Notes under the pieces: generated by a model
The model's database searches: none
The model's input: only the letters and a program-made list of their open reading frames with translations
What the model was told of the DNA's origin: nothing
Translations under genes and position numbers: made by a program
Part shown: piece after piece, positions 421 to 24,039 of the stretch
How positions within the stretch are numbered: position 1 is the first letter of the stretch
How the letters are laid out: the number at the start of each line of letters is the position of its first letter
From: a virus
Length of the DNA stretch: 24,039 nucleotides
Reading direction: 5' to 3' (one strand)
IMG/VR virus record: IMGVR_UViG_3300025137_000285
Span: 1 to 24,039 of that record

Positions 421-441
421 TGCAGGTAAGAAAAATAGTGT

Positions 442-470: not shown

Positions 471-484
471 TTTGGATAAGAAAA

Positions 485-847
485 ATGGAACTAAAAAGAG
501 ATTTAGTAAAATACATTCGGGATAAAGCCAAATCAAAGTACAAAAAGGGCACTGAATGCGAAATTTGTGGAGATACCGTAAAGCTTGACTTTCACCATTT
601 CTACAGTCTAACTCGATTATTAGATAAATGGGTTAAGGAGCAAAGCCTTGAACCATATTTAGTAATGGAGTGGCGAGAAGAATTTATTGATGAGCATGAT
701 GCAGAGTTATATGAATACACTGCAACTTTATGCCACAAGCATCATTTACAACTACACTCTATATACGGTAAAGACCCACTATTAAGTACAGCGAAAAAAC
801 AAGAACGCTGGGTAGGAATTCAAAGAGATAAACATGGCTTGGTATGA
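485..847 (+). CDS. HNH endonuclease-like protein next to terminase
   Basis: The product has 120 residues with a zinc-stabilised HNH layout: C25-x2-C28 (CEIC), a central LDFHH (H37, H38), then LCHKHHLQLH (C83, H86, H87, H91). The paired cysteines would hold a structural zinc, and the central histidines with the later histidines would form the metal-dependent nuclease site. About 44 residues separate the HH from the second CH cluster, longer than in minimal HNH domains. HNH proteins beside the terminase are common in long-tailed phages; in HK97-like phages such a protein helps terminase cleave cos DNA, so that role is inferred from context. A free-standing homing endonuclease is the main alternative. 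The gene sits directly after a consensus promoter, has only a weak ribosome site (GATAAG), and its last 14 bases overlap the portal gene. Confidence 0.85.
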   Translation: MELKRDLVKYIRDKAKSKYKKGTECEICGDTVKLDFHHFYSLTRLLDKWVKEQSLEPYLVMEWREEFIDEHDAELYEYTATLCHKHHLQLHSIYGKDPLLSTAKKQERWVGIQRDKHGLV

Positions 848-2033: not shown

Positions 2034-2035
2034 TT

Positions 2036-2335
2036 ATGAATAGTAATAGAGGAAAAGAGAAAAGAATTGTACAAAAAGTTGCGGAGTATTTAGCAAATAG
2101 AGGAAACGTTCCTTCCCCTAGGGAATATAGTAGAGACTCAAATAGACCTAGTTTTACAAATTTAAAAGAGATAAATAAGTATGTAGGAAGCTGGGAAATA
2201 TTATTAAATAAGATACAAGCTGCTCACCCTACCCTCTGGGAGCTAGCACAACCACAAATAAAAGCTAAACCAATTCCTAAAGCTAAACCTAAAGCTAAAC
2301 CCGCTACTAAAGTGGCAAGCACTAAAGAGAAGTAA
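2036..2335 (+). CDS. Small basic protein with homing-endonuclease-associated-repeat-like domain and PKAK tail
   Basis: The product has 99 residues. Residues about 8-60 resemble the helix-turn-helix unit found as repeats beside homing endonucleases: two helices, then GNVPSPREY, a spacer, and KYVGSWEILLNKI, compared with the family pattern of xxPTxxEY followed by xxGSWxxAL. That likeness is by eye, not a search result. Residues about 74-99 form a Lys/Ala/Pro-rich tail (KAKPIPKAKPKAKPATK) like histone H1 or other DNA-binding tails. No nuclease residues are present. A DNA-binding role, perhaps in packaging or capsid assembly or together with the HNH protein upstream, is inference only. The start has GAGGAA seven to eight bases upstream. 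It begins three bases after the portal stop and ends one base before the protease start, so it is part of the head operon. Confidence 0.75.
   Translation: MNSNRGKEKRIVQKVAEYLANRGNVPSPREYSRDSNRPSFTNLKEINKYVGSWEILLNKIQAAHPTLWELAQPQIKAKPIPKAKPKAKPATKVASTKEK
2276..2299 (+). repeat. Tandem direct repeat coding PKAK
   Basis: CCTAAAGCTAAA occurs twice back to back (2276-2287 and 2288-2299), and a related AAAGCTAAACC lies just before at 2261-2271. It encodes the PKAK units of the basic tail of the small head-region protein. Being in frame and a multiple of three, it could change in copy number by slippage without breaking the gene. Confidence 0.85.
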
Positions 2336-2336
2336 T

Positions 2337-4409: not shown

Positions 4410-4428
4410 TAGTTATTTTAACTATGTT

Positions 4429-6854: not shown

Positions 6855-7994
6855 ATGGCCTTAACTTTTAGTCGCGATACGAAGCTGTTTGTAACTGTAA
6901 GCAGCATGGTATTTGAAATTCCAATTCTTGATGGATTTTCTTTTTCGCAAGCTCAAAATATTCAAGAAATATCACTTAATGAAGCAGCTTCAACAAGTGG
7001 AGTTAGTCGTAGAGGGCGAGAAGCTCTTGTAAATTCAATTAACCCTGCTGAGTTTAGCTTTTCAACTTATATTAGACCTTTTAAGTCTGCAGGTTCAGGA
7101 GCTGGAGCTGCTGATAATGCTGCGGAACATCACATGGTAGATGATGTTTTATGGTCTCTACTTCTAGCTAGTAACACAAGCACCTTTACTGGAGGTGATG
7201 CTTCTACTCCTGCTGCGTCTGTTATACCAGGCTGGGCTTTTGCGGGTGCAGCCAGCGCGCTTACTCCTAGTAGTAATTCGACTACTTTAAATACCTGTAG
7301 CCTAACATTTCTAATTGGAGATCAAAGTTATACAATTTCTGATTGTGTAATGAATGAGTGTAGTATTGATTTTGATATTGATGGAATTGCTACAGCAAGC
7401 TGGAGCGGGTTTGGTACAACAATTGTAGATGGCGCTGCTGCAGGTAGTGTAACTTGTAACGAAGGGATTTTTGCTCAAAATAACTTTATTCGTAACAGGC
7501 TTTCACAAGTTAGATTAGTTGGTGGAGGAGATCCTGCTTCGGTAACTTATGGTATTACTTTAATAGGGGGCAGTCTCACAATTTCCAATAATATTACTTA
7601 TTTAACTCCTGAGCAGTTAGGTAAGGTAAATACTCCTTTAGGTCATGTAACAGGTACTAGGTCAGTTACAGGAACTTTAAATTGTTATCATAATACTACT
7701 TCCAATGGCTCGGCAGATTTATTGGAAGATATTCTAGAGGATATAGGAACAGCTACTACTGCAGGTAATGCAACAAACGTACATGAGTTGGATATCTTTA
7801 TTGGTGGAGGATCAGGTACAGATCCTAACACTCCCGGAATGATAATTAGTATGGATCAAGTACATTTAGAAATCCCTACAATCTCTTCTGATGATGTTAT
7901 GACAGTTGAGATTCCATTCCATGCACTACCTGCTGATTTGGATTCTACAAATGAAATAACTTCAATAATTGTAGAGGGTGCAGTACCAGCTTAA
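6855..7994 (+). CDS. Major tail tube protein
   Basis: The product has 379 residues with a strong AGGAGA ribosome site (6843-6848). It is placed where the tube gene belongs, between the tail terminator and the chaperones. Sequence features are beta-rich: FSFSQAQNIQEISLNEAA (about 28-45), STYIRPFKSAGSG (about 70-82), a middle domain with two cysteines (C148, C164), then GKVNTPLGHVTGTRSVTGTL (about 256-275) and LEIPTISSDDVMTVEIPF (about 338-355). These pairs reappear in the next gene, so the two are paralogues. The GKVNxxxxHVTGxR motif also occurs in other phage tube proteins of this type as far as I recall. Hundreds of copies would stack around the tape measure. It is probably the main tube subunit because it is compact and has the stronger ribosome site and a terminator behind it. 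Confidence 0.82.
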   Translation: MALTFSRDTKLFVTVSSMVFEIPILDGFSFSQAQNIQEISLNEAASTSGVSRRGREALVNSINPAEFSFSTYIRPFKSAGSGAGAADNAAEHHMVDDVLWSLLLASNTSTFTGGDASTPAASVIPGWAFAGAASALTPSSNSTTLNTCSLTFLIGDQSYTISDCVMNECSIDFDIDGIATASWSGFGTTIVDGAAAGSVTCNEGIFAQNNFIRNRLSQVRLVGGGDPASVTYGITLIGGSLTISNNITYLTPEQLGKVNTPLGHVTGTRSVTGTLNCYHNTTSNGSADLLEDILEDIGTATTAGNATNVHELDIFIGGGSGTDPNTPGMIISMDQVHLEIPTISSDDVMTVEIPFHALPADLDSTNEITSIIVEGAVPA

Positions 7995-8058: not shown

Positions 8059-11000
8059 ATGGCTATTCAAAAGAAGTCACAGACTCAATGTTTTTTGGAG
8101 AACGGAGGACAACTCTGGAAGCTCCCTATATCTGATTACAGTTTTTCTCAAAACTTAAATCAGGAGGATATAGTAATAAATGAAATGAGTACAGGTGTCG
8201 CTCTAAATAGAAGTATAGGCCAAGAAAATATTTCATTAGATCCTGCAGACTGGAGTTTAACTACTTTTGCAAAACCTTTCAAAACTACGGGGTCAGGAGA
8301 TGGCAGAGCTTCTTTAGTTTCAGGAAATCATCATGCAACTGATGAGGCATTATGGAGCATGCTTGGGAGCTCTCAAGGCGCAGTTTTACAGCCAGGAACT
8401 GCACTATCAGATTTAGATACATATAGAGGTAAAGTTACTTGGACTACAGCAGATATAAGTACGGCACATGGAGGCTCCAATGCAAATACAATTGGATATT
8501 GGGCACACGCAGAGCCAAATGTTTTTGATTTGTATGTTCTAGAGAAGTTTGAGCCTAATATAGAAGCAAATTATCAAGATACTTTTATTTGGACTTGCAC
8601 TACAGCAGGTGGGTTAAAGATACCTGTAGAGCGTGGAGTTAATCGATCCAATCAACTAGAACGAAATGGGAATGAAATGAGAGCATATTCTGACGTTGCT
8701 CATGGTGGTGGTCCAGTTTTATTTGTATATTCCTATGTTCATGCTAATCAAGGAAGCTCTGAGTTTTTTACAACTTTACTTATTCCTTCAGATACAACTT
8801 TTCATGATTTTTTAAATACAAATGGTGCTTTAACTATTACGGGTACTCCAAAGTCAACCGTGTACCTTTCAGGGGTAAAAGACGCTGTTGCAAGCTCTAA
8901 GTGGAGTTTTGATTTTTCTCAGTCTCAAAAAGAGCAACTAGCAACTGGAAATCTATATTTTGTTACAGATATTCCTCAAGTAACAACTGTAGCGGGAACA
9001 GTAAATTCCTCCAATCAACTAATTTTAGAAGCCACACATCATCATACCGATATTGAGTGGAATTTTTTTGGTAGCGATTCCTACGCTTCTTTCTTTAAGG
9101 GAGGATATGTACCATATGTACATATTGATCATTTACAGTATCAAAATACAACTAGCGTTACTGGGTGGAGCTTACCTACTACATGGTTTGTAAGTGGTAA
9201 AGGTACTCCAGCTGCTAGAACGGGCAGCGTTGAGACTAAAAATTGTGTGTACCCTAGCAAGATAATTAGAGATGGGGTTGAGTATCCTGTAACAGTATTT
9301 GGTACTGATTCAATTGGAGATAGTAGCATTTCAGCTATATGGAACGATGGTTCAAATTATTGGCACTGTCCTACTTTCAGATTTAGAGTACAAACTGATG
9401 GTAAAGTTAACACTATCCAAATAAGAGACTCAAAAGCTCCAAATGTACTCGCTGTAAGTGTAGCCAGCTGGGGACAGCGAGCAGGAGGTATAGCAGGAGA
9501 TATATTTGTAATACCTGCAGGAACTTTAGACGATAATGGTGTAGCACTTCCTGTAGAGGTAAGATTTGTTGCTACCTCTGCTTCTTCTATGGATTTGGGA
9601 CGGTTACCTACCTCCGCTGATAGAGATGTTTTTATATATGGAACGGAAAATTATAAAAGCGATCTTACTAAAACTCCTCAATTTGAAGTATTTGGTCGCG
9701 GTAGACCTCAATGGTTAGTGGATAATGATTTTTATGTTGAGGTAGAAAAAGTTGACTCTGGAACTACATTTTCTTTAACGGAAAATTCTAACTCTCGTCA
9801 AGATCTCAGGCAGATTACTACTGCAACTACACAAACTGATTGTAATGATTCAAGAAATATTACTTTAAGTGCTTCAAATTCAAATATACGTTTAGGAGCT
9901 TTAGTAACAGGAAGTTTTACCGATAAGAGAGTATATGTTAGTTTTATATCAGGAACTACTTTAAGAGTTCAGGGGAATGTAACAATACCTGCAGGAACTA
10001 CTTTAACTTTTATAGACTACCCTGTTAAAGCAGGTCTTAGTCAAGGAGAGTATAGATGGTATAATTCTGACGGTAGAAACCATCTAATATATAGAGAACC
10101 CGCTGATTTTACTGGGCATAATCCTGATTTAATAAGAGTATACACTTCCCGAAATAAAAATACGGGTGGAAGTGCTGTTATGAAACTAGAAGACTGTGTA
10201 ATTGATACTGCTTCTCTAAACTTTGGCATAGATAGTATGACACAAATTACTTGGACAGGTTATGCCAAAAAAATACATCAAGAAGCCCCTAACTTTATTA
10301 TAGCTTCCTCCGCTCCTTCGAGCCCCTCAGCAAAAGATATTTTTTACGATATAGATGATGATAAAGTACAAATTAGAAATGCTGCGAATACTGCTTGGAT
10401 AAATTGTATTACTGAAGGAGTAGATAAAGAAGATAACTTTATAATAAATAAACTAGGCACTCTTAAACTTGCAAATAATGTTGGAACTGCTCAAGTAAAT
10501 ACAATACTATTAGATGAATTAATATTTTCCGATCCAAATGCATATTCTTATTTAGGAGGATCGTCTAAATACTACTCCGGTTTAGCAGGCACAAATGGAA
10601 TGACTGCAAATATTGCTGCAACTATAATTAATTTAGGAGATATTAATGCCAGAGAAAATAATACTCAAGCCTCTTATGCGGAAACTGCAAATTGGTTAGG
10701 TGATTATGACTGGAGTTTAAATATAGACGGTCAAACCTATGGCTCCTCTCACTTTAAAGGCGTAGACACTTGGACAGTAAACTCTACTTTAATAACTGCT
10801 ATGAGATCCGAAACAACTTTTGGAGATTTTTTATTGGCAAAAAACGTAGGAGTTTGGCATAATAATGCTAACATACTTTTAATGTTTTGCACAGGAACAA
10901 ACGCATCTTATAATACAGCAGCTAAGCTTGCTGCAGCAAATATAACTTTGACAGGAACAGCAAAATCCTCTGTTAAAACTTTTGAAGAGTTTAGTATTCC

Positions 11001-11532
11001 AATTACGGGTGGAACTGTTACTATTTTAAATAATATACAAACTATTACAAGAAATGAAATTGGAAAAGTCAATACAATGGATTCTCATGTAACAGGTGCC
11101 AGAATAATAAAAGGAGAAGTAAGCGCTTATTTAGACGATACTACTTCTATTGTTAGAAACAGGATATTTGAAGAAATGAATGAATCTATAGCTTATTCTG
11201 CTTATGGTGAAGGCGATACTGAAATGGGATTTAGTAATCCTTATACATATAATGTTGAAATGTCTTTAGGAGGAACTTATTTAGCAGATAATACTGTTAA
11301 TTTAAAAATGCCAACTACTAGCTTTAAGTTGCCCACAATAGATTCAGAAGAAGTATTTACAACAAATATACAATTTACCGCATTAGATCCTGGAGTATAC
11401 CAGAGAGATATAATTTCACTTAATGAGGCATTTCCTTTATTTAATAATTTTGTGCCAACACCTTATGCTGGCAATACAGGCACGCACAATCAGCAAGGGA
11501 AAGAATTAAATGTAATTTATAAAGGTAAGTAA
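8059..11532 (+). CDS. Giant tail tube paralogue with inserted domains
   Basis: The product has 1157 residues. Its ends and two internal blocks align by eye with the 379-residue tube protein just upstream: residues 1-107 (SFSQNLNQEDIVINE, FAKPFKTTGSG, HHATDEALWSML), about 706-740 (CVIDTASLNFGIDSM), about 788-808, and about 976-1130 (EIGKVNTMDSHVTGAR, LPTIDSEEVFTTNIQF). Between them lie about 600 extra residues (108-705), a short piece with SSAPSSPSAKDIFYD (about 741-787, like tail-fibre linkers), and about 160 residues (812-975). The first and last extra parts share a pattern (TTFHDFLN with LTITGTPKS, and TTFGDFLL with ITLTGTAKS), suggesting a duplicated module. No enzyme motif is visible. Minor tube subunit, decorated tube or baseplate ring component are possible roles; the insertions may bind carbohydrate, which is unproven. 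Lying behind a terminator, it is probably made in lower amounts. Confidence 0.8.
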   Translation: MAIQKKSQTQCFLENGGQLWKLPISDYSFSQNLNQEDIVINEMSTGVALNRSIGQENISLDPADWSLTTFAKPFKTTGSGDGRASLVSGNHHATDEALWSMLGSSQGAVLQPGTALSDLDTYRGKVTWTTADISTAHGGSNANTIGYWAHAEPNVFDLYVLEKFEPNIEANYQDTFIWTCTTAGGLKIPVERGVNRSNQLERNGNEMRAYSDVAHGGGPVLFVYSYVHANQGSSEFFTTLLIPSDTTFHDFLNTNGALTITGTPKSTVYLSGVKDAVASSKWSFDFSQSQKEQLATGNLYFVTDIPQVTTVAGTVNSSNQLILEATHHHTDIEWNFFGSDSYASFFKGGYVPYVHIDHLQYQNTTSVTGWSLPTTWFVSGKGTPAARTGSVETKNCVYPSKIIRDGVEYPVTVFGTDSIGDSSISAIWNDGSNYWHCPTFRFRVQTDGKVNTIQIRDSKAPNVLAVSVASWGQRAGGIAGDIFVIPAGTLDDNGVALPVEVRFVATSASSMDLGRLPTSADRDVFIYGTENYKSDLTKTPQFEVFGRGRPQWLVDNDFYVEVEKVDSGTTFSLTENSNSRQDLRQITTATTQTDCNDSRNITLSASNSNIRLGALVTGSFTDKRVYVSFISGTTLRVQGNVTIPAGTTLTFIDYPVKAGLSQGEYRWYNSDGRNHLIYREPADFTGHNPDLIRVYTSRNKNTGGSAVMKLEDCVIDTASLNFGIDSMTQITWTGYAKKIHQEAPNFIIASSAPSSPSAKDIFYDIDDDKVQIRNAANTAWINCITEGVDKEDNFIINKLGTLKLANNVGTAQVNTILLDELIFSDPNAYSYLGGSSKYYSGLAGTNGMTANIAATIINLGDINARENNTQASYAETANWLGDYDWSLNIDGQTYGSSHFKGVDTWTVNSTLITAMRSETTFGDFLLAKNVGVWHNNANILLMFCTGTNASYNTAAKLAAANITLTGTAKSSVKTFEEFSIPITGGTVTILNNIQTITRNEIGKVNTMDSHVTGARIIKGEVSAYLDDTTSIVRNRIFEEMNESIAYSAYGEGDTEMGFSNPYTYNVEMSLGGTYLADNTVNLKMPTTSFKLPTIDSEEVFTTNIQFTALDPGVYQRDIISLNEAFPLFNNFVPTPYAGNTGTHNQQGKELNVIYKGK

Positions 11533-12492: not shown

Positions 12493-15400
12493 ATGGCAAA
12501 GAAGAATAGAGTACAAATAGACGTAGAAATTAATGGTAAAATGCAAAAAGCAACCGTTGATGCCAAAAAACTTCGTGGACAACTAGACGGACTAAGTGGT
12601 AGTGCTCATTCAACAGATCGTCGTCTTAAAGGTGCTTCTCAGCAATCTGCAAATACAACTAAAAACTTTTCAAAAATGGCTCAAGGTATTACTGGAGGAC
12701 TTGTTCCTGCGTATGCAATTTTAGCTTCTTCTGTATTTGCCATGTCTGCAGCTTTTAACTTTTTAAAGAATGCTGGTGATCTTCGTACTTTACAACAGGG
12801 TCAAGTTGCATATGCTAGTGCTACTGGTGTAGGATTAAGAACTCTAACAAAATCTGTGCAGGATGCAGCAGGAGGAATGCTGACATTTAGAGATGCTGCT
12901 CAAGCAGCTTCTATTGGTGTAGCTGCAGGTCTTAGTCCCGATCAGCTAACTCGTCTTGGTAAAGCCGCAAAAGATGTTTCTATTGTATTAGGTAGAGATG
13001 TTACTGACTCTTTTAATCGTCTTGTAAGAGGTGCTACAAAAGCAGAACCTGAACTACTTGATGAATTAGGTATTATACTAAGATTAGATGACGCTACAAA
13101 ATTATACGCAGATAAACTAGGTATAGCCGCGGGAACTCTTACTACTTTTCAAAGACAACAAGCAGTAACAAATTTTGTACTGGGAGAAGCAGAAAGAAAG
13201 TATGGTGCTATACTTGATATTGTTGAAGTTCAGCCAAATGCTTTTGCACAATTAGGTAAAGCATTTGATGATATTATGAACAAAGTAAAGTCTTTAATAG
13301 AGACTGCACTTAGCCCTCTTGCTGAAACTCTTACTCGATTTCCCGCATTAGCCGTAGCAGCTTTTGGTTTGCTAGGTGCAAGTATTATGAAATCAATTAT
13401 TCCTGGATTACAAGACTTTGGAGCAAATGCAAAATCTAACTTTGAAATTTTTAGTAGTCAAGCAGAAATTGCACGTCAAAGAGCAGTAGCATTTAATGCA
13501 ACCTTAGCTAAAGCTAAACTAGATCCTGGGGCAACTTCTGCGATGGGAGATGCAGCGAGAGCCGGTGCTAGTTCGACTTTGCAGCAGGCAGGACCAAAGT
13601 CAGCTTTCTCAGGAAAGTATGCTCAAGTTCATGCAGGTGACTTTTCTAATATAAGCAAAAAACAAGTTAGTAACATGATAGAAGATCTTGAAAAAGGAAC
13701 TGGACAAGCAAAACTACTTTCTCAAAGTATGAGAGATTCTATGATTTTGGACTTAAAAGATGTTCAGTTAGAAATGAAAGTCACCGGAAATGTCGTAGAA
13801 GTAGAGACAGCAGAAGCAACTACAAAAGCCAAGTTTTCTTTTAAATCTTTTGAGCTAAGTGCAAAAGCAGCAATTGCAGGAATTAAAGCTCAAATGTCTA
13901 CTCTTGCAATCGCTGCATCTAGATTAATGTCTGCATTTGGTTGGATTTCTATACTTGCAACTGCAGGTACTATGCTTTATAGCTTTATAAAACCTGTAAA
14001 AGAACTAACTGCTGAAGAAAAGAAATTAGCAGAAACTACTGAAAACTTAGAGAAAAAATTACAGAGTCTCGGAAATGAATTTACTTTTTTAACTGATGTA
14101 ATGCAGCATCATAACAAAGAAGCCTTTACTTTAGCAGAAACCTTTACTGTGCTAGGAAATGCACTTAGTAATTTAAGCGAAGATGAAATGGGTTTGAATG
14201 TTAAAAACTTTGAATCTGCTCTTCCTGTACTTCAACAAATAAGTAAAGAAATAGATCGGTTAAATACTAATAGGGCTGCGTATAATGCCAAGGATGTAAG
14301 TCAAGGCAGAAAACCCCGGTTTGAAATGATAGATAGTTCTATGGAAGGAATTGTAAAACGGGCTCAGTCTGGTGTTAATGATTTAAGTGATGAAGAAGCT
14401 GCCGCCGTAGGATTTTTTACAACAATACAAAATGCAATGAACGCTACAGAAAATGAAGCACTAAAAAATGCAACTTCATTTAAAAACTTAGCCGCTGCTT
14501 TACAAGGAGTTGGAGAAGTAAGTTTAGAGGAAGCAATAAAACAGTTTCAAGCTTCATCAAAAGCTTTGGACTCAATAACAAAAACAGGTGTTGAAAACGC
14601 TAAAAAATCTAGACAATTATTTGCAAGTTTTATGCCTGAGAGTAAATTTGATCAACAAGTGGCTCTTTTAGAAGCTGAAAAGAAAGCAATTGATGAGCTT
14701 ACAGCTAAGGAAGGGACACTAAGCGCAATAGAAGAAGAAAGACTAAAAGTGATTGAAAAACAAGTTATTGCTTTTAAACGCATAGCCGTAGAAAAACATA
14801 AAGATCTTATGATGACTATGAAAATTAATAATATGGCTCTAGCTTCCCAGAGAGGTGCGACTCCTTTACAAAAAGAAAGATTAAATACCCAAAAAGAACT
14901 TCTTCATGTAAATAGAAAAATTGTTGCAATACAAAACAATAATAGAATTGTTCAATCAAAAATTAATGAAGAAGTGAAAAAAGCAACTGCCAATGGCTTA
15001 TCAGCTTCAGAAGCAAATGTTACTGCAGGAGAACGACAGCTCGAAATAAATAGAGAAAAAACTTTAGAGTTAGCACTGCAAAAACAAGCTTTAGAGGATC
15101 AATTAAATTTACAGTTTCAACTGAATGAAGCATTTAAAGCAGGGTTTGAAGCACAAACTACAAAAGGCGTAGAGGGTCTTATTACTGGAGAGGAAAGCAG
15201 TTTCGGAGACGTTGCACTAGAATCAGTACAAGCAGGGTTAAAAGGAATGGCGAGTACTTTAGCTAAAGATATGTCTAGAAATGTAAGTGACTTCATGTTT
15301 GGAAAGAAAGCATTAAAAGATCCAGAGAATGCGGATGACGTACTAAAGACAGTATATGATAGTGCAACTGGTGCTCTTAAAGTAGTTATGGCTGGTGCAC

Positions 15401-16566
15401 CTAAAGTAGATCCTAAACCTACTCCTTCAACTCCGGGCAAAGTCGACCCTAAAAACTTTGACACAGGAGGAGGGACTCCAGGTGCGGGACAATCTATTTT
15501 TAACGCTGATGGTAGTATTAATCAAACAAGAGGCTACTCTATGGGCACTGGTAATATGATGAGCGCTGATGGTGCAATAGATTGGGCTTCTTTAGGTGTA
15601 ACTAAGGAAAGTATGGCGAAACCAACAATAACAGGTCAAGGTGCTGGAGTTGTTGGGGGCATGGCAAATGTTACAAAAGAACAACTAGCTGGTTCAGGTC
15701 TTAGCTTAACCGAATATATGAATCAAATGAACGCTACAGGAACTCGACCTGGAGAAGGTGGAGACGGTGAAGGGCTTCCAGGAGGCGAAGGCTTTTTAGA
15801 AGGATTAAAAAATGTATTTACAGGGGAAGGAAGTGAAGATGGTTTTGTAGGAAGACTTGGTACTTTCTTCCAAGGACAAGCCGAAGGGGAGGGTTTTATA
15901 GGAAAAATGTCAACTTTCTTTACTGAAGCAGCAAACCATAAAGATGGATTTGTAGGTAAGCTAAAAGATACCTTTAAAGAAAAACTGCTTGGACCTGATG
16001 GCTTTCTACAAGGATTAGGGTCTACTTTTAAAGAGAAAGGCAAGAATCTTTTAGATGGATTAGGCGGCTTTTTAGGTAAAATGAAAGATGGTTTAGGAGG
16101 ATTTTTAAGTGAGATGGGAGGAGCTCTTAAAGGTCTTTTTAGTGGCGGTGGCGGTGGCGGTGGCCTCGGAGGCTTACTAAGCACTGTAGCCGGAGCGTTT
16201 GGATTTGGGGGTGGAGGTGTAGGCGCTAGATACGGCGGTATCATGAAAGAGTATGCTACTGGAGGAATCGCAAGAGGTAGAAATGCTGGATATCCTGCTA
16301 TGCTTCATGGAACAGAGGCTGTAGTTCCTTTACCTAACGGAAATAAAATTCCTGTAGAAATGCAAGGTGGTGGAGGAAATAATATTACAAATAATATTAC
16401 AGTAAATGTAAGCAAAGAAGGTGCCTCTCAAGAAACTACTTCCTCTATGGGAGAAAGCTCAAAAGACGATGCAAAACTAGCAAATGCACTATCTTTAGCG
16501 GTACAAGAAGAACTTGTAAAACAACAAAGACCTGGCGGATTATTAAGCCAGTATGGAGCAGGCTAA
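12493..16566 (+). CDS. Tape measure protein
   Basis: The product has 1357 residues and is one of the two longest proteins wholly in the tail operon. Tape measures set tail length at about 1.5 angstrom per residue, so the tail should be near 200 nm. Features in order: basic N-terminus, hydrophobic segment at about 68-92 (VPAYAILASSVFAMSAA), an Ala-rich conserved region (about 100-215), further hydrophobic stretches at about 280-305 and 485-500, helical and coiled-coil middle (about 510-880), a Gly-rich repeat region (1099-1216), poly-Gly, and the usual end GGIARGRNAGYPAMLHGTEAVVPL (key element LHGTEAVVPL). Hydrophobic segments are thought to enter the cell membrane during DNA injection. I see no peptidase or transglycosylase motif, so cell-wall cutting may rest with the K-like protein. 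The ATG abuts the chaperone stop with AAAGG five bases before; its stop overlaps the M-like start. Confidence 0.95.
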   Translation: MAKKNRVQIDVEINGKMQKATVDAKKLRGQLDGLSGSAHSTDRRLKGASQQSANTTKNFSKMAQGITGGLVPAYAILASSVFAMSAAFNFLKNAGDLRTLQQGQVAYASATGVGLRTLTKSVQDAAGGMLTFRDAAQAASIGVAAGLSPDQLTRLGKAAKDVSIVLGRDVTDSFNRLVRGATKAEPELLDELGIILRLDDATKLYADKLGIAAGTLTTFQRQQAVTNFVLGEAERKYGAILDIVEVQPNAFAQLGKAFDDIMNKVKSLIETALSPLAETLTRFPALAVAAFGLLGASIMKSIIPGLQDFGANAKSNFEIFSSQAEIARQRAVAFNATLAKAKLDPGATSAMGDAARAGASSTLQQAGPKSAFSGKYAQVHAGDFSNISKKQVSNMIEDLEKGTGQAKLLSQSMRDSMILDLKDVQLEMKVTGNVVEVETAEATTKAKFSFKSFELSAKAAIAGIKAQMSTLAIAASRLMSAFGWISILATAGTMLYSFIKPVKELTAEEKKLAETTENLEKKLQSLGNEFTFLTDVMQHHNKEAFTLAETFTVLGNALSNLSEDEMGLNVKNFESALPVLQQISKEIDRLNTNRAAYNAKDVSQGRKPRFEMIDSSMEGIVKRAQSGVNDLSDEEAAAVGFFTTIQNAMNATENEALKNATSFKNLAAALQGVGEVSLEEAIKQFQASSKALDSITKTGVENAKKSRQLFASFMPESKFDQQVALLEAEKKAIDELTAKEGTLSAIEEERLKVIEKQVIAFKRIAVEKHKDLMMTMKINNMALASQRGATPLQKERLNTQKELLHVNRKIVAIQNNNRIVQSKINEEVKKATANGLSASEANVTAGERQLEINREKTLELALQKQALEDQLNLQFQLNEAFKAGFEAQTTKGVEGLITGEESSFGDVALESVQAGLKGMASTLAKDMSRNVSDFMFGKKALKDPENADDVLKTVYDSATGALKVVMAGAPKVDPKPTPSTPGKVDPKNFDTGGGTPGAGQSIFNADGSINQTRGYSMGTGNMMSADGAIDWASLGVTKESMAKPTITGQGAGVVGGMANVTKEQLAGSGLSLTEYMNQMNATGTRPGEGGDGEGLPGGEGFLEGLKNVFTGEGSEDGFVGRLGTFFQGQAEGEGFIGKMSTFFTEAANHKDGFVGKLKDTFKEKLLGPDGFLQGLGSTFKEKGKNLLDGLGGFLGKMKDGLGGFLSEMGGALKGLFSGGGGGGGLGGLLSTVAGAFGFGGGGVGARYGGIMKEYATGGIARGRNAGYPAMLHGTEAVVPLPNGNKIPVEMQGGGGNNITNNITVNVSKEGASQETTSSMGESSKDDAKLANALSLAVQEELVKQQRPGGLLSQYGAG
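15787..16140 (+). repeat. Degenerate 17-19-residue protein repeat in tape measure
   Basis: Residues about 1099-1216 of the tape measure hold successive units starting EGF, DGF, EGF, DGF, DGF, DGL and DGL, each followed by a hydrophobic and Lys/Gly pattern, for example DGFVGRLGTFFQGQAEG and DGFVGKLKDTFKEKLLGP. Unit length is mostly 17-19 residues, with one of 11. The DNA is diverged, so the repeat is old or selected at protein level. Confidence 0.7.
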
Positions 16567-16937
16567 TGTCATTAATTGGATTTACAACCACACTAGGACA
16601 CGACTTCACTCCAGATAAAAGCCTTACAATTAGTAATACACCTACTATAATTACGGCAAAATTTGGAGATGGCTATGAGCAGAGAGCTAGAAAAGGTATT
16701 AATAGTTTACAAGTTTCTTATGCAGTTACTTTTTCAAATAGAACTCTATCAGAGGCTCAAGAATTATCAAGGTTTTTTGAAGAGGTACTGGGAGTAACTT
16801 CTTTTGATTTTAGTTTACCTAAAACAAGTCTTAACACATACAATGTAGTAAGCGTAGTATGTGACGACTACTCTAGAACTATGGACTATAATAACTACCA
16901 TACAATAACGGCAACATTTAGAAGAGTATATAATTAA
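16566..16937 (+). CDS. Minor tail protein M-like
   Basis: The product has 123 residues, close to lambda gpM. Recognisable elements are AKFGDGYEQRARKGIN (about 31-46), a conserved block of this family, and the ending ITATFRRVYN. Lambda gpM is a tail-tip component added with L and needed to complete the tip complex on which the tube grows. Its start overlaps the tape measure stop (TAATG) and its own stop overlaps the L-like start in the same way, so M and L are translationally coupled. Nothing unusual is seen, in contrast to the greatly enlarged L-like neighbour. Confidence 0.92.
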   Translation: MSLIGFTTTLGHDFTPDKSLTISNTPTIITAKFGDGYEQRARKGINSLQVSYAVTFSNRTLSEAQELSRFFEEVLGVTSFDFSLPKTSLNTYNVVSVVCDDYSRTMDYNNYHTITATFRRVYN

Positions 16938-19900
16938 TGCCAACTAGAATAAATAGAACTCAAGAAATAGATAATTCTTTGCAGAAACAAGAGCTAGAGG
17001 CTCTTGTAAATCTTTTTGCAATTTATTTACCAAACCCCTCTTCTGTGGGTAGCTGGCTTGCTGAGCCAACATACACCTTAACTGCGGTTGATGTCTCACA
17101 ATCACATCTTGCATATTCCGTGCCTAATGCGAACTTCTCTGATCCCACAAAAAAACCCTTTAATTTTATAATAAAAGGTAAAAAATATCAGTTTGATCCA
17201 ATACCTATTGAAATAGATGGTATAGAGTATACTTCTGAAAGTGCTATGCCGCACCCAATGGTAACAATAGGTAATATAAACTTACCTGGGTGGAAGCCAG
17301 AATCTTTATTAGGAGCTAAATTTCAGTATATACAAACTTTTCAAAAATATGTTAATACTGATACTTCTTTGCCAGTACAAACTTTTATTATAGACTCAAT
17401 AAAAGAAGAAACTTTTTCATATATTCAATATGAACTAGTTGCTCCCTATGATTTGCAAGACGTAAAGTTACCTAGAAGAAGAATAGTAGGGGGACAGTGC
17501 CCTTGGATATATAAAGGAGCCTCAGAAAAATCTGGAAGACATAATTTTATAGCTACAGATGCTATTAGAGGGGGCTGCAACTGGCCTGATGATAATATTT
17601 ATGTAACAGGAGGCCAGGGGAGGGCTTCTTTACTATTTATGAATTCAAACGATGAATATGTAGTTGATGCAAGATTAATACCTTTAGCTACTAGAAATTA
17701 CGCAGAAAAACCGGCAGACCAAGGTATTACTGCCGGACAATATTTTTATACTATTTCTTCGTCTTACAAGTTAGACAGTCAAGGACTAAAAGACCCTAAT
17801 TTAAGCATAGTATACCAATACTGGCAGGCTATGAAAACTGTTACTTTTGATCAACCAGTAGACGAACCTTCTGCAGATAGCCCTTTCTGGAGACAAGTAA
17901 GAGTATATAAACCTTACAATTATACTAATACTTATTGTGCATATTCTGACTCTCGTTTTAATGATTACGTTAGTCTTTCGCAGGGAGGTACTACAGTAAA
18001 TAATGCAGGATTAGCCAGTCTTGTAGAAGGTTATGAATTTGTAGAGCCAGAACCCATTAATGAGATAATACCATTAGATAGTTTTTCGGAAGTATTAGAC
18101 AACGCAGGAGGAAAAGCTTTAAGGTTAGCTATAGACCCTGGTACATCTTTGGAGATATTAGCTAATTACATAGCCGATGTAGAATATTCAACAGATGATA
18201 TGGGAGCTTATATAAATACTAGAACTAACACAGCTGTGGGCTCTTTTGCAGCTCAACCTGGTACTGACCAAACTTGGTTAAATTTAGTCGCCCCTATTTA
18301 TAATTCAGGACTTTTATATAGTAAACAAAATATTCAAGGTTGGGGAATGGCACCAGGACAAGTTGTTCTTGTAGATGAGACAAACTTAAATCCTGCATAT
18401 AATTCTATTAAAGCAGGAACTGATTATTCTTTATGGATAGGTCTTGGAGCCAATACAGTTGAAGAAACTAATGGATTAAGTGGGTTTTTAAGTCCAGAAG
18501 GAGAGTTTTTGTCTTTGTGGATGCATACAAAAAATGAAAATACACAAACTCAAAAACAAATTTATCAAGTAAAGAACAAAACTCTTGACCCAAATAAACT
18601 ATCTAGACTTCAGCACGGACCCTTTCCTCCTAGAGATACTAGGAGCTTTAATTATGAAAACTGGAATGCTGGAGATCAGTGTAGTAAAACTTTAGATGCG
18701 TGCGTTCTTAGATTTCAATCAGCAGCTTTAGCGGTGGAAGAAGACGAGTCAGTTAATACTAATTTTGATTGGAATATGACACCTAGATACTCTGATGATG
18801 CATCAGGAATTAGAAATATATATTATATGGCAACTCTTACGCCAAGCTACGACTTTAGCCGAGGGGCCGAAGGGCAGAGCGGAGTCGACCTCCTAGGAAG
18901 GAGTCCTGTAGTAAGATATCTTAGATGTGACGATGATGTTTTATATAATAGCTTACCTGATGAAGGTTTTGTAAATGTCGAGATGTACATAGATGGACAA
19001 TATAGAACTAATTATCCTTACTATAAGCATAATAAAACAGGGCAAGATAATTATTTAGATGATGGAAATGATGTAAGTTTTTCTGGTAGTAAGACAGGAA
19101 GCGAGTATACAGGAGCAATGGGCCATAAATTAAGCCCTAGATTAAATCTTCCAGACATGGCCGATAAGGGTTTTGGAGATTATTACTATATTAAACTAGC
19201 TCCTCAAGAAGACTCAACTTCTCCGGGTACTTTTACTCCTGGTTGGGCAACTTTTACTGAAGGGGCGGAAGTTACTACGGCATCAGGAAGAGAGGTGTTA
19301 TTTCACCCTGACCGAAGTATAAGGAGTGGTGGCAACCGAAAGTTAGGCATTGGCGTTGACGGCTCTTCATATAATTTTACGTTTAAATGGTCTGGGTCTG
19401 AAAACCCGGCACAGGGGGGCACTCCTTCACAGCCTCACGGTCTAATAATGGCTGATATAGACGTACTTGGCGTTGAAAATGAAGGGGCAGTAAATGGTTT
19501 ATTTCTAATTAGTATGGCGGGCCTAGAAGCAGAAACTGCTCCTTTTGAAATCGATCGATTTGATAATATGACAGAGGGCGGTATGGGAATGAGCCCTCGA
19601 GGCTATCTTGGCGACATAGGAGTGCCTGATGTGACTATAACAGCCAGTGGCAGTGGCGAAGGCGTTGGCACCTTTCTAACAGGTACAAAAAATAATGCAG
19701 TGGCACATGGGGGCGCATCTTCGGGGTGGACTGTGGGCTCTAGGTCTTGGACTCAACCTGTATTAAGAGATAAAGACGATAATGCTATAGCAAACGGAAC
19801 TATAGACCCAAGTACAGGACAAACATATAAATTTAGATTTTCTAATTTTACTAATTTAGGTAATACTCCGTTAAGCCCAGTTTTACAATCACAAATTGCT

Positions 19901-19942
19901 CTACCTTTTGGAGGTTTTCCAGGCTCAAGGAGGTTCAAGTAA
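16937..19942 (+). CDS. Minor tail protein L-like, greatly enlarged by two insertions
   Basis: The product has 1001 residues; lambda gpL has about 230. Residues 1-220 follow gpL: LEALVNLFAIYL, IEIDGIEYTSESAMPHPMVTIGN, LVAPYDLQDVKLPRRR, then QCPWIYKG (C188) and GGCNWP (C214). The third and fourth signature cysteines, usually some tens of residues on, lie at DQCSKTLDACVLRF (C582, C589), and the family's terminal FGGFPG motif is at 991-996, at the very end. Lambda gpL binds an iron-sulphur cluster through four cysteines; all four positions seem kept here, with C582-C589 at the seven-residue spacing I recall for lambda. About 365 residues lie between the cysteine pairs and about 390 between RF592 and FGGFPG. 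The second insertion is much GC-richer than the rest. AAGGAGG near the 3' end serves the next gene. Insertion functions are unknown; surface-exposed binding domains at the tail tip are likely. Confidence 0.88.
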   Translation: MPTRINRTQEIDNSLQKQELEALVNLFAIYLPNPSSVGSWLAEPTYTLTAVDVSQSHLAYSVPNANFSDPTKKPFNFIIKGKKYQFDPIPIEIDGIEYTSESAMPHPMVTIGNINLPGWKPESLLGAKFQYIQTFQKYVNTDTSLPVQTFIIDSIKEETFSYIQYELVAPYDLQDVKLPRRRIVGGQCPWIYKGASEKSGRHNFIATDAIRGGCNWPDDNIYVTGGQGRASLLFMNSNDEYVVDARLIPLATRNYAEKPADQGITAGQYFYTISSSYKLDSQGLKDPNLSIVYQYWQAMKTVTFDQPVDEPSADSPFWRQVRVYKPYNYTNTYCAYSDSRFNDYVSLSQGGTTVNNAGLASLVEGYEFVEPEPINEIIPLDSFSEVLDNAGGKALRLAIDPGTSLEILANYIADVEYSTDDMGAYINTRTNTAVGSFAAQPGTDQTWLNLVAPIYNSGLLYSKQNIQGWGMAPGQVVLVDETNLNPAYNSIKAGTDYSLWIGLGANTVEETNGLSGFLSPEGEFLSLWMHTKNENTQTQKQIYQVKNKTLDPNKLSRLQHGPFPPRDTRSFNYENWNAGDQCSKTLDACVLRFQSAALAVEEDESVNTNFDWNMTPRYSDDASGIRNIYYMATLTPSYDFSRGAEGQSGVDLLGRSPVVRYLRCDDDVLYNSLPDEGFVNVEMYIDGQYRTNYPYYKHNKTGQDNYLDDGNDVSFSGSKTGSEYTGAMGHKLSPRLNLPDMADKGFGDYYYIKLAPQEDSTSPGTFTPGWATFTEGAEVTTASGREVLFHPDRSIRSGGNRKLGIGVDGSSYNFTFKWSGSENPAQGGTPSQPHGLIMADIDVLGVENEGAVNGLFLISMAGLEAETAPFEIDRFDNMTEGGMGMSPRGYLGDIGVPDVTITASGSGEGVGTFLTGTKNNAVAHGGASSGWTVGSRSWTQPVLRDKDDNAIANGTIDPSTGQTYKFRFSNFTNLGNTPLSPVLQSQIALPFGGFPGSRRFK
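19201..19740. other. GC-rich island inside the L-like gene
   Basis: Hand counting gives about 48% GC over 19201-19740, up to 55-58% in single 60-base lines, against about 22% at 17161-17220 and 33% at 18901-18960 in the same gene. A smaller rich patch lies near 18841-18900. Codons such as GGC, GCC and GTC become common. It covers much of the second insertion, suggesting acquisition from a different source. Confidence 0.65.
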
Positions 19943-19944
19943 TG
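19927..19944 (+). promoter_or_regulatory. Strong ribosome binding site for the K-like gene
   Basis: AAGGAGG at 19927-19933 lies eight bases before ATG 19942 and is formed by the last codons of the L-like gene (S-R-R-F-K end). It fixes the start of the K-like gene and, with the TAATG overlap, gives both coupled and independent initiation. Confidence 0.85.
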
Positions 19945-20637
19945 GATAATGAAATACTAAAATATTGTTTTGAAAAATACCCTGAAGAAGCTTGTGGAGT
20001 AGTATTGAATCAAAAAGGTACTTTAAAATGGATTCCTTGCGAAAATGTAGCAGAGGATAAAGAAAATAGTTTTAAAATTTCTGCAGTAGACTATGCATCT
20101 CTTTCTTTACAAGGAGATATTTATGCCATAGTACACAGTCATCCAGATGAAAGTTGCGAGCCTAGTGAAAAAGACAAAAAAGCGAGCGAACATTTAAAAG
20201 TTCCATATCATATATACTCTATACCAAGCGGAGAAAAACATGTATATACTCCTAGTGTTTCTATAGAGCCTTACATAGCAAGAGTTTATGACTTTGGTGT
20301 AACAGATTGTTGGACTTTAGTAAGAGATTACTATTTACAAGAGTTTAAGTATACACTACCTATGATAGAATTTGATGAAGAATTCTATGATAAAGGAATA
20401 GACTATTTTGGAAATAATATGGAAGCATGGGGAGGCTTTGAAGTAGATACTCCTCAAATTGGAGATGTAGTTCTATTTAAAATAATGAATGATATAGAAA
20501 ACCATTGTGGGGTTTATATAGGGGAAGGAAAGTATATTCATCACATGAGAGACAGGCTCTCTTGTACAGATAGTATTTACTCTGGCTGGGGTAAATATAT
20601 TACGAGGTATATAAGATGCAAAAAGTTGTTCTCGTAG
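19942..20637 (+). CDS. Tail tip assembly protein K-like: JAB/MPN plus NlpC/P60 peptidases
   Basis: The product has 231 residues with two hydrolase domains in the order known for lambda gpK. Residues about 1-105 are a JAB/MPN metalloprotease: E16 in PEEACGVV and HSHPDESCEPSEKD, giving H65, H67, S75 and D78 of the JAMM zinc site. Residues about 115-231 are an NlpC/P60 cysteine peptidase: DCWTLVRDYY with C123 and HCGVYIGEGKYIHH with H188. All key residues are present, so both domains look active. The NlpC/P60 domain could cut peptidoglycan during entry; the JAB domain may process a tail protein, though its substrate is not established. It sits between the L- and I-like genes as in lambda. Its last 22 bases overlap the next gene in another frame. 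Confidence 0.95.
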   Translation: MDNEILKYCFEKYPEEACGVVLNQKGTLKWIPCENVAEDKENSFKISAVDYASLSLQGDIYAIVHSHPDESCEPSEKDKKASEHLKVPYHIYSIPSGEKHVYTPSVSIEPYIARVYDFGVTDCWTLVRDYYLQEFKYTLPMIEFDEEFYDKGIDYFGNNMEAWGGFEVDTPQIGDVVLFKIMNDIENHCGVYIGEGKYIHHMRDRLSCTDSIYSGWGKYITRYIRCKKLFS

Positions 20638-21239
20638 GAGACTTAGCACAGTTTGGAGAAGTTTGGCATACTGAATGTAAAGACATTGCAAGTATATTTA
20701 AACTCATCTCCTGTCAGACTCCTGGATTTCGTAAATATCTTATAGATGCTGATGAAGCAGGTTTAGATGTAGAAATAGTAAAAGGGGGAGAACTTTTAGT
20801 TGACCCAAGAGAGATTCTCATGCAGATAGGGTCTGAGGATATTGTAATAACCTTGTGTCCTTCAGGAGGTAAAAGTAAATTTTTGCGCATCGTATTTGCT
20901 GTAGCTTTGTACTTTACTCCTTTAGGTCCTTTTACTGCAATCGCTCAAGGTATCGCAATTAATTTGGGTCTAAGTGTAATATCAGAAATGCTAGCTCCCG
21001 GCCCTGAGACTCAACAACAAAGAAATCAAATTGATGGAGAAGAAGTAGGAGACAGACTATTTAATGGACCAGTAAATGTAAGTAAAAATGGAACAGTAAT
21101 ACCTTTATTGTATGGAGAACTTATAGTAGGGGGCGCTGCAATAAGTGCAGAATTTTTCCAAGTGAGGGACAACGCTGCAGAAAATACATTTATAGATTCA
21201 TCTATTCAAGATTCAACAGTAAGGTTATATGGAAACTAA
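20616..21239 (+). CDS. Tail tip assembly protein I-like
   Basis: The product has 207 residues. The N-terminal 80 residues form an alpha/beta domain (VVLVGDLAQFGEVW, GFRKYLIDADEAGLDVEI), followed by a long hydrophobic region at about 88-127 (FLRIVFAVALYFTPLGPFT, then AIAQGIAINLGLSVI), a polar linker, and NGPVNVSKNGTVIPLLYGEL (about 150-169; key element GTVIPLLYGEL). This is the layout of lambda gpI, required for tail-tip assembly but not detected in the finished lambda tail. The hydrophobic segment could be a membrane or assembly element. It starts inside the K-like gene, and the J-like ATG follows its stop after two bases. The call rests on motif and place. Confidence 0.9.
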   Translation: MQKVVLVGDLAQFGEVWHTECKDIASIFKLISCQTPGFRKYLIDADEAGLDVEIVKGGELLVDPREILMQIGSEDIVITLCPSGGKSKFLRIVFAVALYFTPLGPFTAIAQGIAINLGLSVISEMLAPGPETQQQRNQIDGEEVGDRLFNGPVNVSKNGTVIPLLYGELIVGGAAISAEFFQVRDNAAENTFIDSSIQDSTVRLYGN

Positions 21240-21241
21240 TA

Positions 21242-24039
21242 ATGGCTAAAATTTCAAATCAAACAGGAAGGATATTAGATGCTATTTCAGCAGGGCCAAT
21301 TGAAGGTCTTGTAAACGGGAACGCTAGTGTGTTTTTGGATGACTCCTCAGTTGCAAGAAAAACACTAGTAGATGATGCAGGTATAGATGTACCCACAAAT
21401 ACATTAAATATGACTGCTAATTTTGTACAAGGAAGTAGTATAGTAACTGTTCCAAAAACTGCAGAATTACAGGCTTTGATAGGTAATCTTAGTGCTAACT
21501 TTCCTAGATTTTTATGGTTAGAGGGGGCAGGAAGACAAGCAGCTCTTTCAAACTATTCAGGAGTGGGAAGTACTAATACCACAGCATTCTCTAGGTTCGG
21601 TTCATTTGCAAACGCAAGCAAAAGTACTGGTGGACTAGGGGGTAAAGCTCTACAAACATATCCTTTTGTTCGTAATGAGATAGATGATGATAATTTTGGT
21701 ACTTTATTTAATGACCCTGCATATAGAATCCATGCACGAGAAATTGTGGATTTAAAAAGCTTTTATGAGGATGGTACGATTACAACCCAAAGTACTACTT
21801 CTGATATTAAACAAACTTTTACAGTAAATATGGTAGCAAATCCAACTTTAGTCAGTGCGCGCAATTCCCCGACCTTCTCCAGGTCAGGGCTAAATCTTGT
21901 TACTGCTAATGTAGAAAGAAAACATTACTTTAAAGATATATCTACTTATAGTTATGGGGATCATCCTGATGGCGGAGATACTTTTACTACCGCTGGAGTA
22001 GATGATATATCAGACGAAGTTCTTTTAAAAAGGATAGACCTCAGTACTATTACACCATCAGATACTGTTTCTGGCCATATTGGTATTTTGGGTAATGAGG
22101 GGTTTCACCCTAGAGGTAGTCGATGGTTAGCAAATGGAAATGAGGAGACAGATTTTATACTTTTTGACGGAGTATATAAAATTGTAGATATTAGCCCTGC
22201 TGCAGATAATAATTTTATAGAAATACAAATTGATACTAGTACATCAGATTCCAGTACTACTAATATGTTAACTCCTAGACCTCCTGCTAGAACAAGAGAT
22301 AATGTTAGGGCTCATGTTTTTACTGTCGGAGGCGCGGGTGTGGACTCTGGAGGAACTTTACGTGGTGACGTTCAATTTAAGACAGGAGAAAGAGAGCAAT
22401 TAGAGCTCTCTGCTGTAGAAGGTGGCACAGCTCCTCCAAGAACAAATGTAATTATAAATCCAAATACTACACTTCTTTTATCTAGTTCTTTTACTAATGG
22501 AACATCTGTACCTACAATTTATACGGCTTCTGGCTCTTCCTCAGCTTCTTTAGGGCTGTCTGCTTTACAGACTAAACAAATAGATGCAATACGATTAAAT
22601 CTGCTTTTTCCAAATGGGTTATTTGCTATAGAAAGGGATGGAGACTACATTGATGGAAAATTTGACGCAGTAATTAGATTTAGGCATAGAAATAGCACCT
22701 CAGAAGAATTCAAAGAAGTATTAGTAAGAGGAACAGAAAAATCTGGAAGTTGGTGGGAAAGCGGAACTAGTGATTCCGAATTTTCTCAAGATATAGCAGC
22801 GGGGGTAGGAGTGAGGATATTTGAAAATAAAAAATCTGTTTTTTCCAAAGAGCTCCTTATTGATGTCTCCGTATTCCACCCCTTTATAGATTTTGAACTA
22901 GAAATAGAAAGGCAAACACCAGATAACTTTGATGATTATATGGCAGGAGGTAGAATATTTGATACAGTAGATAACGATAATGAAGTTAAAAGTTTTTCCG
23001 GAACTGCAGTAGTTCAATATGTTCAAGCTTTATTTTATGATAAGTTTACTTACCCACTTACAGCGTATGCAGCAGTAACTTTTTCAGGTGCAGATTTTGA
23101 CAAAATACCTACTCGAGGTTATCATTGTAGAGGTTTAAAAGTAGCTGTACCCAGTAATTATATAACTAGAGAGGAAGATGCTTTAGTTTCAGGAGACAAA
23201 GGAATCGCTCGATATTCGAGAACTGTATCGGGGTACAACAAAATACTAGTTAATCAGGATATTGATAATCAAACAATATTGACAAATACTTTAACTTTTA
23301 CATTAGATGCAGGAGAACTAAATATAAATAGGCCAGATGGATCTTATGATGTAGGGTACTGGAAAGATAAACAATATGGTGGTTCAACTCAGCATGCTGC
23401 TAATATATCCCCTAATGTAGATGACTTGATTATAAGTTTTTACAACTCTGATCCAGATAAAGATGGAAGTCTTTCTCATGCTTCTAACGTACGAGTAAGA
23501 TTTAATCCCGACTATAAACTGCATGGAACTAATTTTCAATTATATCAACAGTTGGATAGTTTTACTGTTACTGATATAGTATCTCAACAAGTTCTTACTT
23601 ATGACACTGACTATTCATTTTTTGATAATATTATGGATGGTAGTACTCCCGGAGTTCAAATATCTCAAACTAATTATGATGCAGCACTTCCTGGTATTAC
23701 TGCCGGCAAAAGCTATACTGTAGTTATGAACTTTAAAAGTAATGTAGTTAGACCGAATAATTATGAACTATGGGATGGTAGCTTTAGAGGTCCTGTATAT
23801 TGTAATAACCCCGCTTGGATATATTTAGATATATTGAATCAACCAGATTATGGACTAGGTGACTTTTTAAAATTAGAAGATGTAGATATATACGAACTAT
23901 ATGAAATAGCAAGACATTGTGATGAGTTAGTACCGGATGGAAAAGGGGGCTTAGAGCCTAGATTTACGTGTAATGTTTATTTAAATAAACCTACTGAAGC
24001 TTATCAGCTTTTAAAAGATTTGGCGTCAACATTTAGAGG
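21242..24039 (+). CDS. Tip attachment protein J-like (partial, runs off the window)
   Basis: The frame is open from ATG 21242 to the window end: 932 codons, incomplete at the 3' end. The start is classic gpJ: ISAGPIEGLVNGNASVFLDD (about 15-34; key element GPIEGLVNG). Later signatures are RGLKVAVPSNY (about 630-640), YELWDGSF (841-848), NNPAWIYLDILNQPDYGLG, and HCDELVPDGKGGLEPRFTCN (key GGLEPRFTCN). gpJ-type proteins form the central tip hub and, at their C-terminus, the host receptor-binding fibre, which is not in view. In lambda only about six residues separate VPSNY from WDG; here about 200 do, so roughly 190 are inserted. The VPSNY motif also lies much further from the N-terminus than in lambda, implying extra sequence around residues 160-400. 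This continues the pattern of the L-like gene and the giant tube paralogue. Confidence 0.95.
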   Translation, partial: MAKISNQTGRILDAISAGPIEGLVNGNASVFLDDSSVARKTLVDDAGIDVPTNTLNMTANFVQGSSIVTVPKTAELQALIGNLSANFPRFLWLEGAGRQAALSNYSGVGSTNTTAFSRFGSFANASKSTGGLGGKALQTYPFVRNEIDDDNFGTLFNDPAYRIHAREIVDLKSFYEDGTITTQSTTSDIKQTFTVNMVANPTLVSARNSPTFSRSGLNLVTANVERKHYFKDISTYSYGDHPDGGDTFTTAGVDDISDEVLLKRIDLSTITPSDTVSGHIGILGNEGFHPRGSRWLANGNEETDFILFDGVYKIVDISPAADNNFIEIQIDTSTSDSSTTNMLTPRPPARTRDNVRAHVFTVGGAGVDSGGTLRGDVQFKTGEREQLELSAVEGGTAPPRTNVIINPNTTLLLSSSFTNGTSVPTIYTASGSSSASLGLSALQTKQIDAIRLNLLFPNGLFAIERDGDYIDGKFDAVIRFRHRNSTSEEFKEVLVRGTEKSGSWWESGTSDSEFSQDIAAGVGVRIFENKKSVFSKELLIDVSVFHPFIDFELEIERQTPDNFDDYMAGGRIFDTVDNDNEVKSFSGTAVVQYVQALFYDKFTYPLTAYAAVTFSGADFDKIPTRGYHCRGLKVAVPSNYITREEDALVSGDKGIARYSRTVSGYNKILVNQDIDNQTILTNTLTFTLDAGELNINRPDGSYDVGYWKDKQYGGSTQHAANISPNVDDLIISFYNSDPDKDGSLSHASNVRVRFNPDYKLHGTNFQLYQQLDSFTVTDIVSQQVLTYDTDYSFFDNIMDGSTPGVQISQTNYDAALPGITAGKSYTVVMNFKSNVVRPNNYELWDGSFRGPVYCNNPAWIYLDILNQPDYGLGDFLKLEDVDIYELYEIARHCDELVPDGKGGLEPRFTCNVYLNKPTEAYQLLKDLASTFR
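21856..21889. repeat. GC-rich palindrome and hairpin inside the J-like gene
   Basis: TGCGCGCA (21856-21863) is a perfect palindrome. Eight bases on, GACCT (21871-21875) pairs with AGGTC (21881-21885) around TCTCC, and CCC (21868-21870) can pair with GGG (21887-21889) past a bulged A. The patch is about half GC in an AT-rich gene and keeps the reading frame (codes ARNSPTFSRSG). It might be a small inserted palindromic element. Confidence 0.45.

Follow-up and report, generated by a model that had tools for sequence, protein, structure and literature searches.

The stretch of marine viral DNA analyzed here (the window; all 24,039 nucleotides of the span 1 to 24,039 of IMG/VR record IMGVR_UViG_3300025137_000285) carries a lambda-type tail block in the order M-L-K-I-J. 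The open reading frame (ORF) at the L position (16937..19942) encodes a gpL-like hub, or tail-tip, protein of 1001 amino acids (aa); it begins with ATG and contains no internal stop. It lies between the genes of a gpM-like distal tail protein (16566..16937; PF05939, 7.8e-21) and of a gpK-like protein with JAB and NlpC/P60 domains (19942..20637; PF14464, 1.9e-11; PF00877, 1.6e-13; PHROG 30, 2.2e-71). The block includes the tape measure gene ahead of M (12493-16566), a gpI-like tail assembly or plug protein (20616..21239; PHROG 32, 1.2e-27) and a gpJ-like central fiber protein (21242..24037; PHROG 31, 1.5e-59) that runs off the end of the window. The genes from M to J, and all gpL segments described below, are on the plus strand.

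The gpL ORF matches the Pfam family Phage_tail_L (PF05100) over residues 80-195 (E = 1.5e-11; 44.5 bits, cut-off 25) and PHROG 18 (E = 2.4e-18), and profile comparison relates it to the solved gpL-type hubs 8iyk_L, 25vf_7, 9l9p_J and 23gd_C. Its cysteines are located at residues 188, 214, 334, 582, 589 and 664, and a terminal FGGFPG begins at residue 991. When the protein is aligned to lambda gpL (taken from NC_001416), C188, C214, C582 and C589 occupy invariant columns with C173, C182, C205 and C212, the residues grouped around the density of the cluster in the solved structure of lambda (PMC10721106), and the FGGF of the window aligns to the FGGF of lambda. In an alignment of 96 homologs, C188, C214, C582, K584 and C589 do not vary, and conservation of the LPFGGFP at the end exceeds 90%; C334 and C664 lie outside the conserved columns. 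The last two of the four ligands are seven residues apart throughout the homologs, in the context CxK....C, and the window has the same arrangement. This agreement of family motifs is far beyond chance and, judged by its sequence, the ORF at 16937-19942 is a lambda gpL-type hub protein with the full set of iron-sulfur (Fe-S) ligand residues and the end motif. The original prediction had read the four cysteines and FGGFPG as gpL signatures standing in the right order, and both the lambda alignment and the 96 homologs bear this out, including the fit of C582, C589 and FGGFPG to the family pattern.

The conserved parts of the protein are spread over the whole gene. The N-terminal attachment domain (HDI; residues 1-187, 16937..17497) contains most of the Pfam match and aligns to gpL of lambda and of the relatives. 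It is followed by the putative cluster ligands C188 (17498..17500) and C214 (17576..17578), which correspond to lambda C173 and C182. The segment CSKTLDACVLRF (18680..18715) holds the putative ligands C582 and C589, corresponding to lambda C205 and C212, and the terminal FGGFPG comprises residues 991-996 (19907..19924). The four ligands are referred to below as C1 to C4. Three relatives (L007, L062 and L072) have gpL ORFs of 170-183 aa that consist of the N-terminal domain only and do not contain the Fe-S cysteines; in this they resemble Jersey gp30, for which a truncation is described (PMC13243795).

Relatives were gathered via the neighboring gpK and then via a gpL alignment; IMG/VR had yielded none when queried with single sequences, be it the whole protein or either of the two inserts. 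The sample thus rests on gpK and gpL patterns and is no census, and since likeness to the family determined its composition, the spacing figures below describe this set and not population frequencies. In the window, the spacings are 26 (C188-C214), 368 (C214-C582), 7 (C582-C589) and 402 (C589-F991), so that the previously estimated separations of about 365 and about 390 residues were fair. The C2-C3 spacing has a median of 157 in the non-redundant set (n = 95), with the window as its largest value. Between C4 and FGGFPG the median is 30 (n = 87); eight members fall at 100-111, relative L008 has 296 and the window 402. The corresponding medians are 23 and 12 in a contrast set of gpL proteins from bacterial genomes, mostly proteobacterial prophages. 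The automatic spacing parser misread two rows (L144 and L058), and their cysteine lists show that both are lambda-like. A C2-C3 insert is present in nearly all fetched marine relatives and, given their median spacing of 157, can be regarded as normal in this group. One relative, L161, is a contig filed under the Euryarchaeota metagenome-assembled genome SP3014 and encodes a 405-aa gpL of the marine type with a C2-C3 insert; it probably belongs to a phage and was placed among archaeal contigs in binning.

The C2-C3 insert of the window, hereafter port 1, is composite. A module profile built from the C2-C3 segments of 73 relatives matches the window at residues 214-348 (i-Evalue 6.9e-23) and again at residues 533-593 (2e-8, C3-C4 motif included), with both i-Evalues taken from a two-sequence search. 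The first part of the module (residues 214-348, 17576..17980) is therefore homologous to the approximately 150-aa C2-C3 module of the marine gpL relatives; in blastp it reaches E values of about 1e-12 to L060, L028 and L086. The second part (residues 533-581, 18533..18679) extends up to C582. The gap in the profile match between them delimits a nested insert of about 185 aa (approximately residues 349-532, 17981..18532); none of the searched collections yielded a relative of it, Pfam gave no match and the PDB none that was convincing.

A further insert of about 390 aa (approximately residues 597-985, 18725..19891) separates C4 from FGGFPG and is referred to as port 2. For this insert too, the searched collections yielded neither a relative nor a family match. 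Neither insert produced anything above noise in phage records, the PDB, Pfam or PHROGs, and matches to cyanobacterial GAPDH, Atu4242 and Big_8 were dismissed (E 0.05-0.2). A clade of eight relatives (L121, L131, L132, L133, L140, L143, L151 and L154) carries approximately 105 residues of glycine-rich GSGYTSAP repeats at the same position. Homology of these inserts to that of the window was rejected, as the terminal motif alone aligns. In a tree of the N-terminal domain, at least three changes are needed to explain the large port-2 inserts, which allows for their repeated gain; the long-branched window and L008 are placed in this tree with little certainty. The original prediction spoke of two insertions. 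Extra sequence is indeed located at two points of the Fe-S domain, and because the port-1 insert is itself composite, the insertions are better counted as three.

The closest counterpart is L008 (IMGVR_UViG_3300017779_000235), whose 821-aa gpL likewise combines the port-1 module, a nested insert that splits this module at the same point (L008 residues 348-465) and a port-2 insert. Unlike those of the window, its inserts are shorter (approximately 118 and 290 aa) and not recognizably homologous: neither the two nested inserts nor the two port-2 inserts show a recognizable likeness to each other. The gpK proteins of the window and its relatives are 51-59% identical. The HDI domains of the window and L008 have branch lengths of 2.07 and 2.39, far above the median of 0.18, yet the gpK proteins of this pair are 59% identical.

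AlphaFold2 was run on the full 1001-aa protein with the 96-row alignment. Most of residues 91-170 (HDI domain), 220-350 and 571-590 is modeled at a predicted local distance difference test score (pLDDT) of approximately 80-95, with about 85 over residues 571-590 around C582 and C589 and about 85-95 across most of the first part of the port-1 module. The inserts fail, with residues 351-568 mostly below 50 and residues 597-941 mostly around 30, which is attributed to their having no relatives. In a Foldseek search with this model, the best PDB match is lambda gpL (8iyk_L, E = 2e-7), followed by the hubs of T1, Sf11, Chi and JBD30; weaker matches, in this whole-protein comparison, are the RcGTA (6tba_7A) and R4C (8gtc_P) hubs. 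A second prediction was made for L060, a natural relative of 380 aa that does not have the large inserts. This model has a mean pLDDT of 85.3; its best match is lambda gpL (5e-10, 220 columns), followed by T1, Sf11, DT57C, Chi, T5, JBD30, RcGTA and R4C. A viral protein named ChiA1_BD-domain-containing is also among its matches.

Other relatives provide signatures of sugar binding in port 1. Pfam CBM_5_12 is found in 8 of the 96 relatives. A carbohydrate-binding module (CBM) of family 5/12 is located between C2 and C3 in L135, where it scores above the cut-off (3.3e-8 for the segment alone), and, with weaker matches, in L116, L145 and L040. When the module profile is made from other members only, it aligns to each of these four over the full length, and a single module profile aligns the CBM-bearing relatives and the window. 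When the CBM-bearing members are included in the module profile, its top eight PDB matches are all chitin-binding chains (E 0.018-0.2). Two mannose-lectin motifs (QTDGNLVLY and QNDGNLVYY) lie between C2 and C3 in the 543-aa gpL of L147 (2930-4558), together with a weak B_lectin match below the cut-off. The port-1 module common to the marine relatives is probably built of CBM 5/12-like units.

Domains between C2 and C3 of a gpL-type hub are known from solved structures. In RcGTA gp13, the ion-binding domain (residues 143-167 and 250-263) is interrupted by an oligosaccharide-binding domain (168-249; PMC7296036), and the R4C hub has the same plan (142-161 and 244-266, with 162-243 between; PMC10276861). 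The cysteines of JBD30 gp50 are located at 147, 156, 238 and 245 (PMC11445458). Both RcGTA gp13 (PDB 6TBA/6TEH) and the R4C hub (8GTC) thus resemble the window protein as gpL-type proteins whose four-cysteine domain is split by a C2-C3 insert, a feature found in the window as the spacing of 368 and the module matches at 214-348 and 533-593. They differ in that their insert comprises only about 80 residues with an OB-like fold and has nothing nested in it, and in that no large insertion follows C4. Lambda gpL (PDB 8IYK/8K35) shares the HDI domain, the four cysteines, the FGGF end and the M-L-K-I-J order, but comprises 232 aa without inserts (C2-C3 spacing 23, C4-FGGF 9). Among isolated phages, the cyanophage proteins S-CBS4 gp036 (465 aa) and S-2L S2L_46 (435 aa) carry C2-C3 inserts of approximately 260 and 180 residues. 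Unlike those of the window, these inserts have long Ala/Lys/Glu-rich flanks that look helical by eye and may form a stalk; no sequence likeness was seen, and a large port-2 insert is absent. The evolved Dit of phages of Gram-positive bacteria carries carbohydrate-binding modules in loops of a tail-tip ring protein (PMC7291167). The likeness is one of logic only, since Dit is a different protein without an Fe-S domain; the window protein is of the gpL type, and its Dit-like gpM is encoded by the separate gene at 16566-16937. Domains looped out between the ligands had been considered an unusual architecture. For the C2-C3 insert this no longer applies, as it is known from cryo-EM of RcGTA and R4C and is usual in the marine relatives, whereas the nested insert and the approximately 390-aa insert between C4 and FGGFPG remain unusual. 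Judged against the literature searched, the novel features are the second port, the nested arrangement and the extreme size, of which L008 is a second case.

We consider it likely, with some reserve, that in this protein an intact Fe-S hub domain presents adhesion modules on the outside of the tail tip. The gene product would then be the gpL-type hub of a lambda-like siphophage tail tip, whose N-terminal HDI domain closes the tail ring jointly with gpJ. The C-terminal Fe-S domain would be intact, with C188, C214, C582 and C589 as ligands of a presumed cluster, and two of its surface loops (C2-C3 and C4 to FGGFPG) would serve as insertion ports. Port 1 would hold the marine-relative module, probably of CBM 5/12-like units, with a further domain nested inside, and port 2 a domain of approximately 390 residues. 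In lambda, the Fe-S domain is found on the outer face of the tip, although it had been expected to be buried (PMC10721106); by homology, both loops would be able to extend away from the tip, their ends held in place by the cluster. Judging from the parallels in RcGTA, R4C and evolved Dit, the inserts are probably adhesion modules that grip host sugars. For this phage, we infer the external position and the adhesion function, as well as the kind of domain in the nested insert and in port 2.

Several results weigh against this interpretation. The port-1 module of the window matches neither CBM_5_12 (PF02839) nor any other Pfam family, and the profile that joins it to the CBM-bearing relatives also spans shared flanks beside the cysteines. 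The chitin-binding PDB matches are lost when the CBM-bearing members are omitted and the profile represents the window-like clade. The module was for this reason not called a CBM, and the sugar-binding reading of the window is an indirect one. Near C188, the model reaches a pLDDT of only about 57. In the N-terminal-domain tree, the window has an end branch of 2.07 against a median of 0.18; its gpL core has thus diverged strongly, and the role of the protein may have changed. As the nested and port-2 inserts have neither relatives nor a confident model, they could be structural. Without taking part in receptor binding, they might make up the outside wall of the tip or a collar around it, anchor side fibers or stand in for the HDII-insertion and FNIII domains that lambda has in gpJ. 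Taken jointly, the C-domain of gpL and the N-terminus of gpJ are the counterpart of the HDII-insertion region of T5 (PMC10721106), the place where gpL meets gpJ is reported to be hypervariable in its structural additions (PMC13243795), and the glycine-rich port-2 repeats of the L121-L154 clade contain no recognized lectin. We nevertheless hold a purely structural role to be rather unlikely: the type of port-1 insert varies freely among the relatives (CBM 5/12, B_lectin motifs, helix-flanked inserts), which fits adhesion better than a fixed structural role, and oligosaccharide binding was assigned to the RcGTA and R4C inserts by their authors (PMC7296036, PMC10276861).

It is very improbable that C582/C589 and FGGFPG are decoys in a degenerate Fe-S domain whose cysteines are not brought together. 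Relatives without the cysteines do occur (L007, L062 and L072), and clusterless lambda homologs are on record (PMC13243795), but the four cysteines are invariant in the 96 homologs over C2-C3 spacings that range from lambda-like up to 368, and C3 and C4 keep their distance and context throughout. It is scarcely credible that the gene is a chimera made in assembly or was invaded by an intein-like or mobile element. The nested and port-2 inserts are orphans, and the G+C content is 0.42 in the port-2 insert against approximately 0.35 in the remainder of the gene. Against this, the gene is a single open frame of 1001 codons, and the codon usage of all its segments, inserts included, agrees with the remaining window in this frame only, which disfavors an assembly or frame artifact. 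No match to an intein, nuclease or transposase was obtained for the ORF in the Pfam and PHROG searches and the three-part plan recurs at the same points in L008, so the intein or mobile-element explanation was rejected.

The role of the gpL Fe-S cluster is an open question in the field (PMC10721106). Should the cluster clamp the ends of loops with exchangeable domains, its ligands should stay essential at any insert size. The clamp idea can be tested along a graded series, from lambda with no insert and RcGTA with one, through marine phages with one composite module, to L008 and the window with three. The hub is also pointed to as a source of host-range variation that is missed by annotation via gpJ and side fibers. 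More tentatively, and with more doubt than conviction, the gpL Fe-S domain might serve marine siphophages generally as a display scaffold with two ports, in which unrelated adhesion domains are swapped into the cluster-clamped loops, with nesting possible. In phages like this one, the hub itself, beside the gpJ fiber, would then be a main receptor-binding protein, and the orphan inserts would represent new receptor-binding folds.

The gpJ-like protein (21242..24037) has approximately 300 residues more ahead of its conserved region (residues 841-932) than the homologs of L003 and L005. In L011 (6674-9451), a 926-aa ORF starts with a gpI-like N-terminus and runs on, possibly as a long extension of the plug protein. 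Directly before gpM, where the tape measure gene stands in the window, L003 has an ORF (1-4413) that comprises 1470 aa or more and contains FG-GAP-like repeats. Two adjacent tail-tube-like genes of the window (6855..7994 and 8059..11532) are paralogous, with 34.7% identity in their N-termini (E = 3e-17) and 33.6% in their C-termini. The second of these (1157 aa) contains several hundred additional residues between the shared parts, a habit of large insertion like that seen in gpL.

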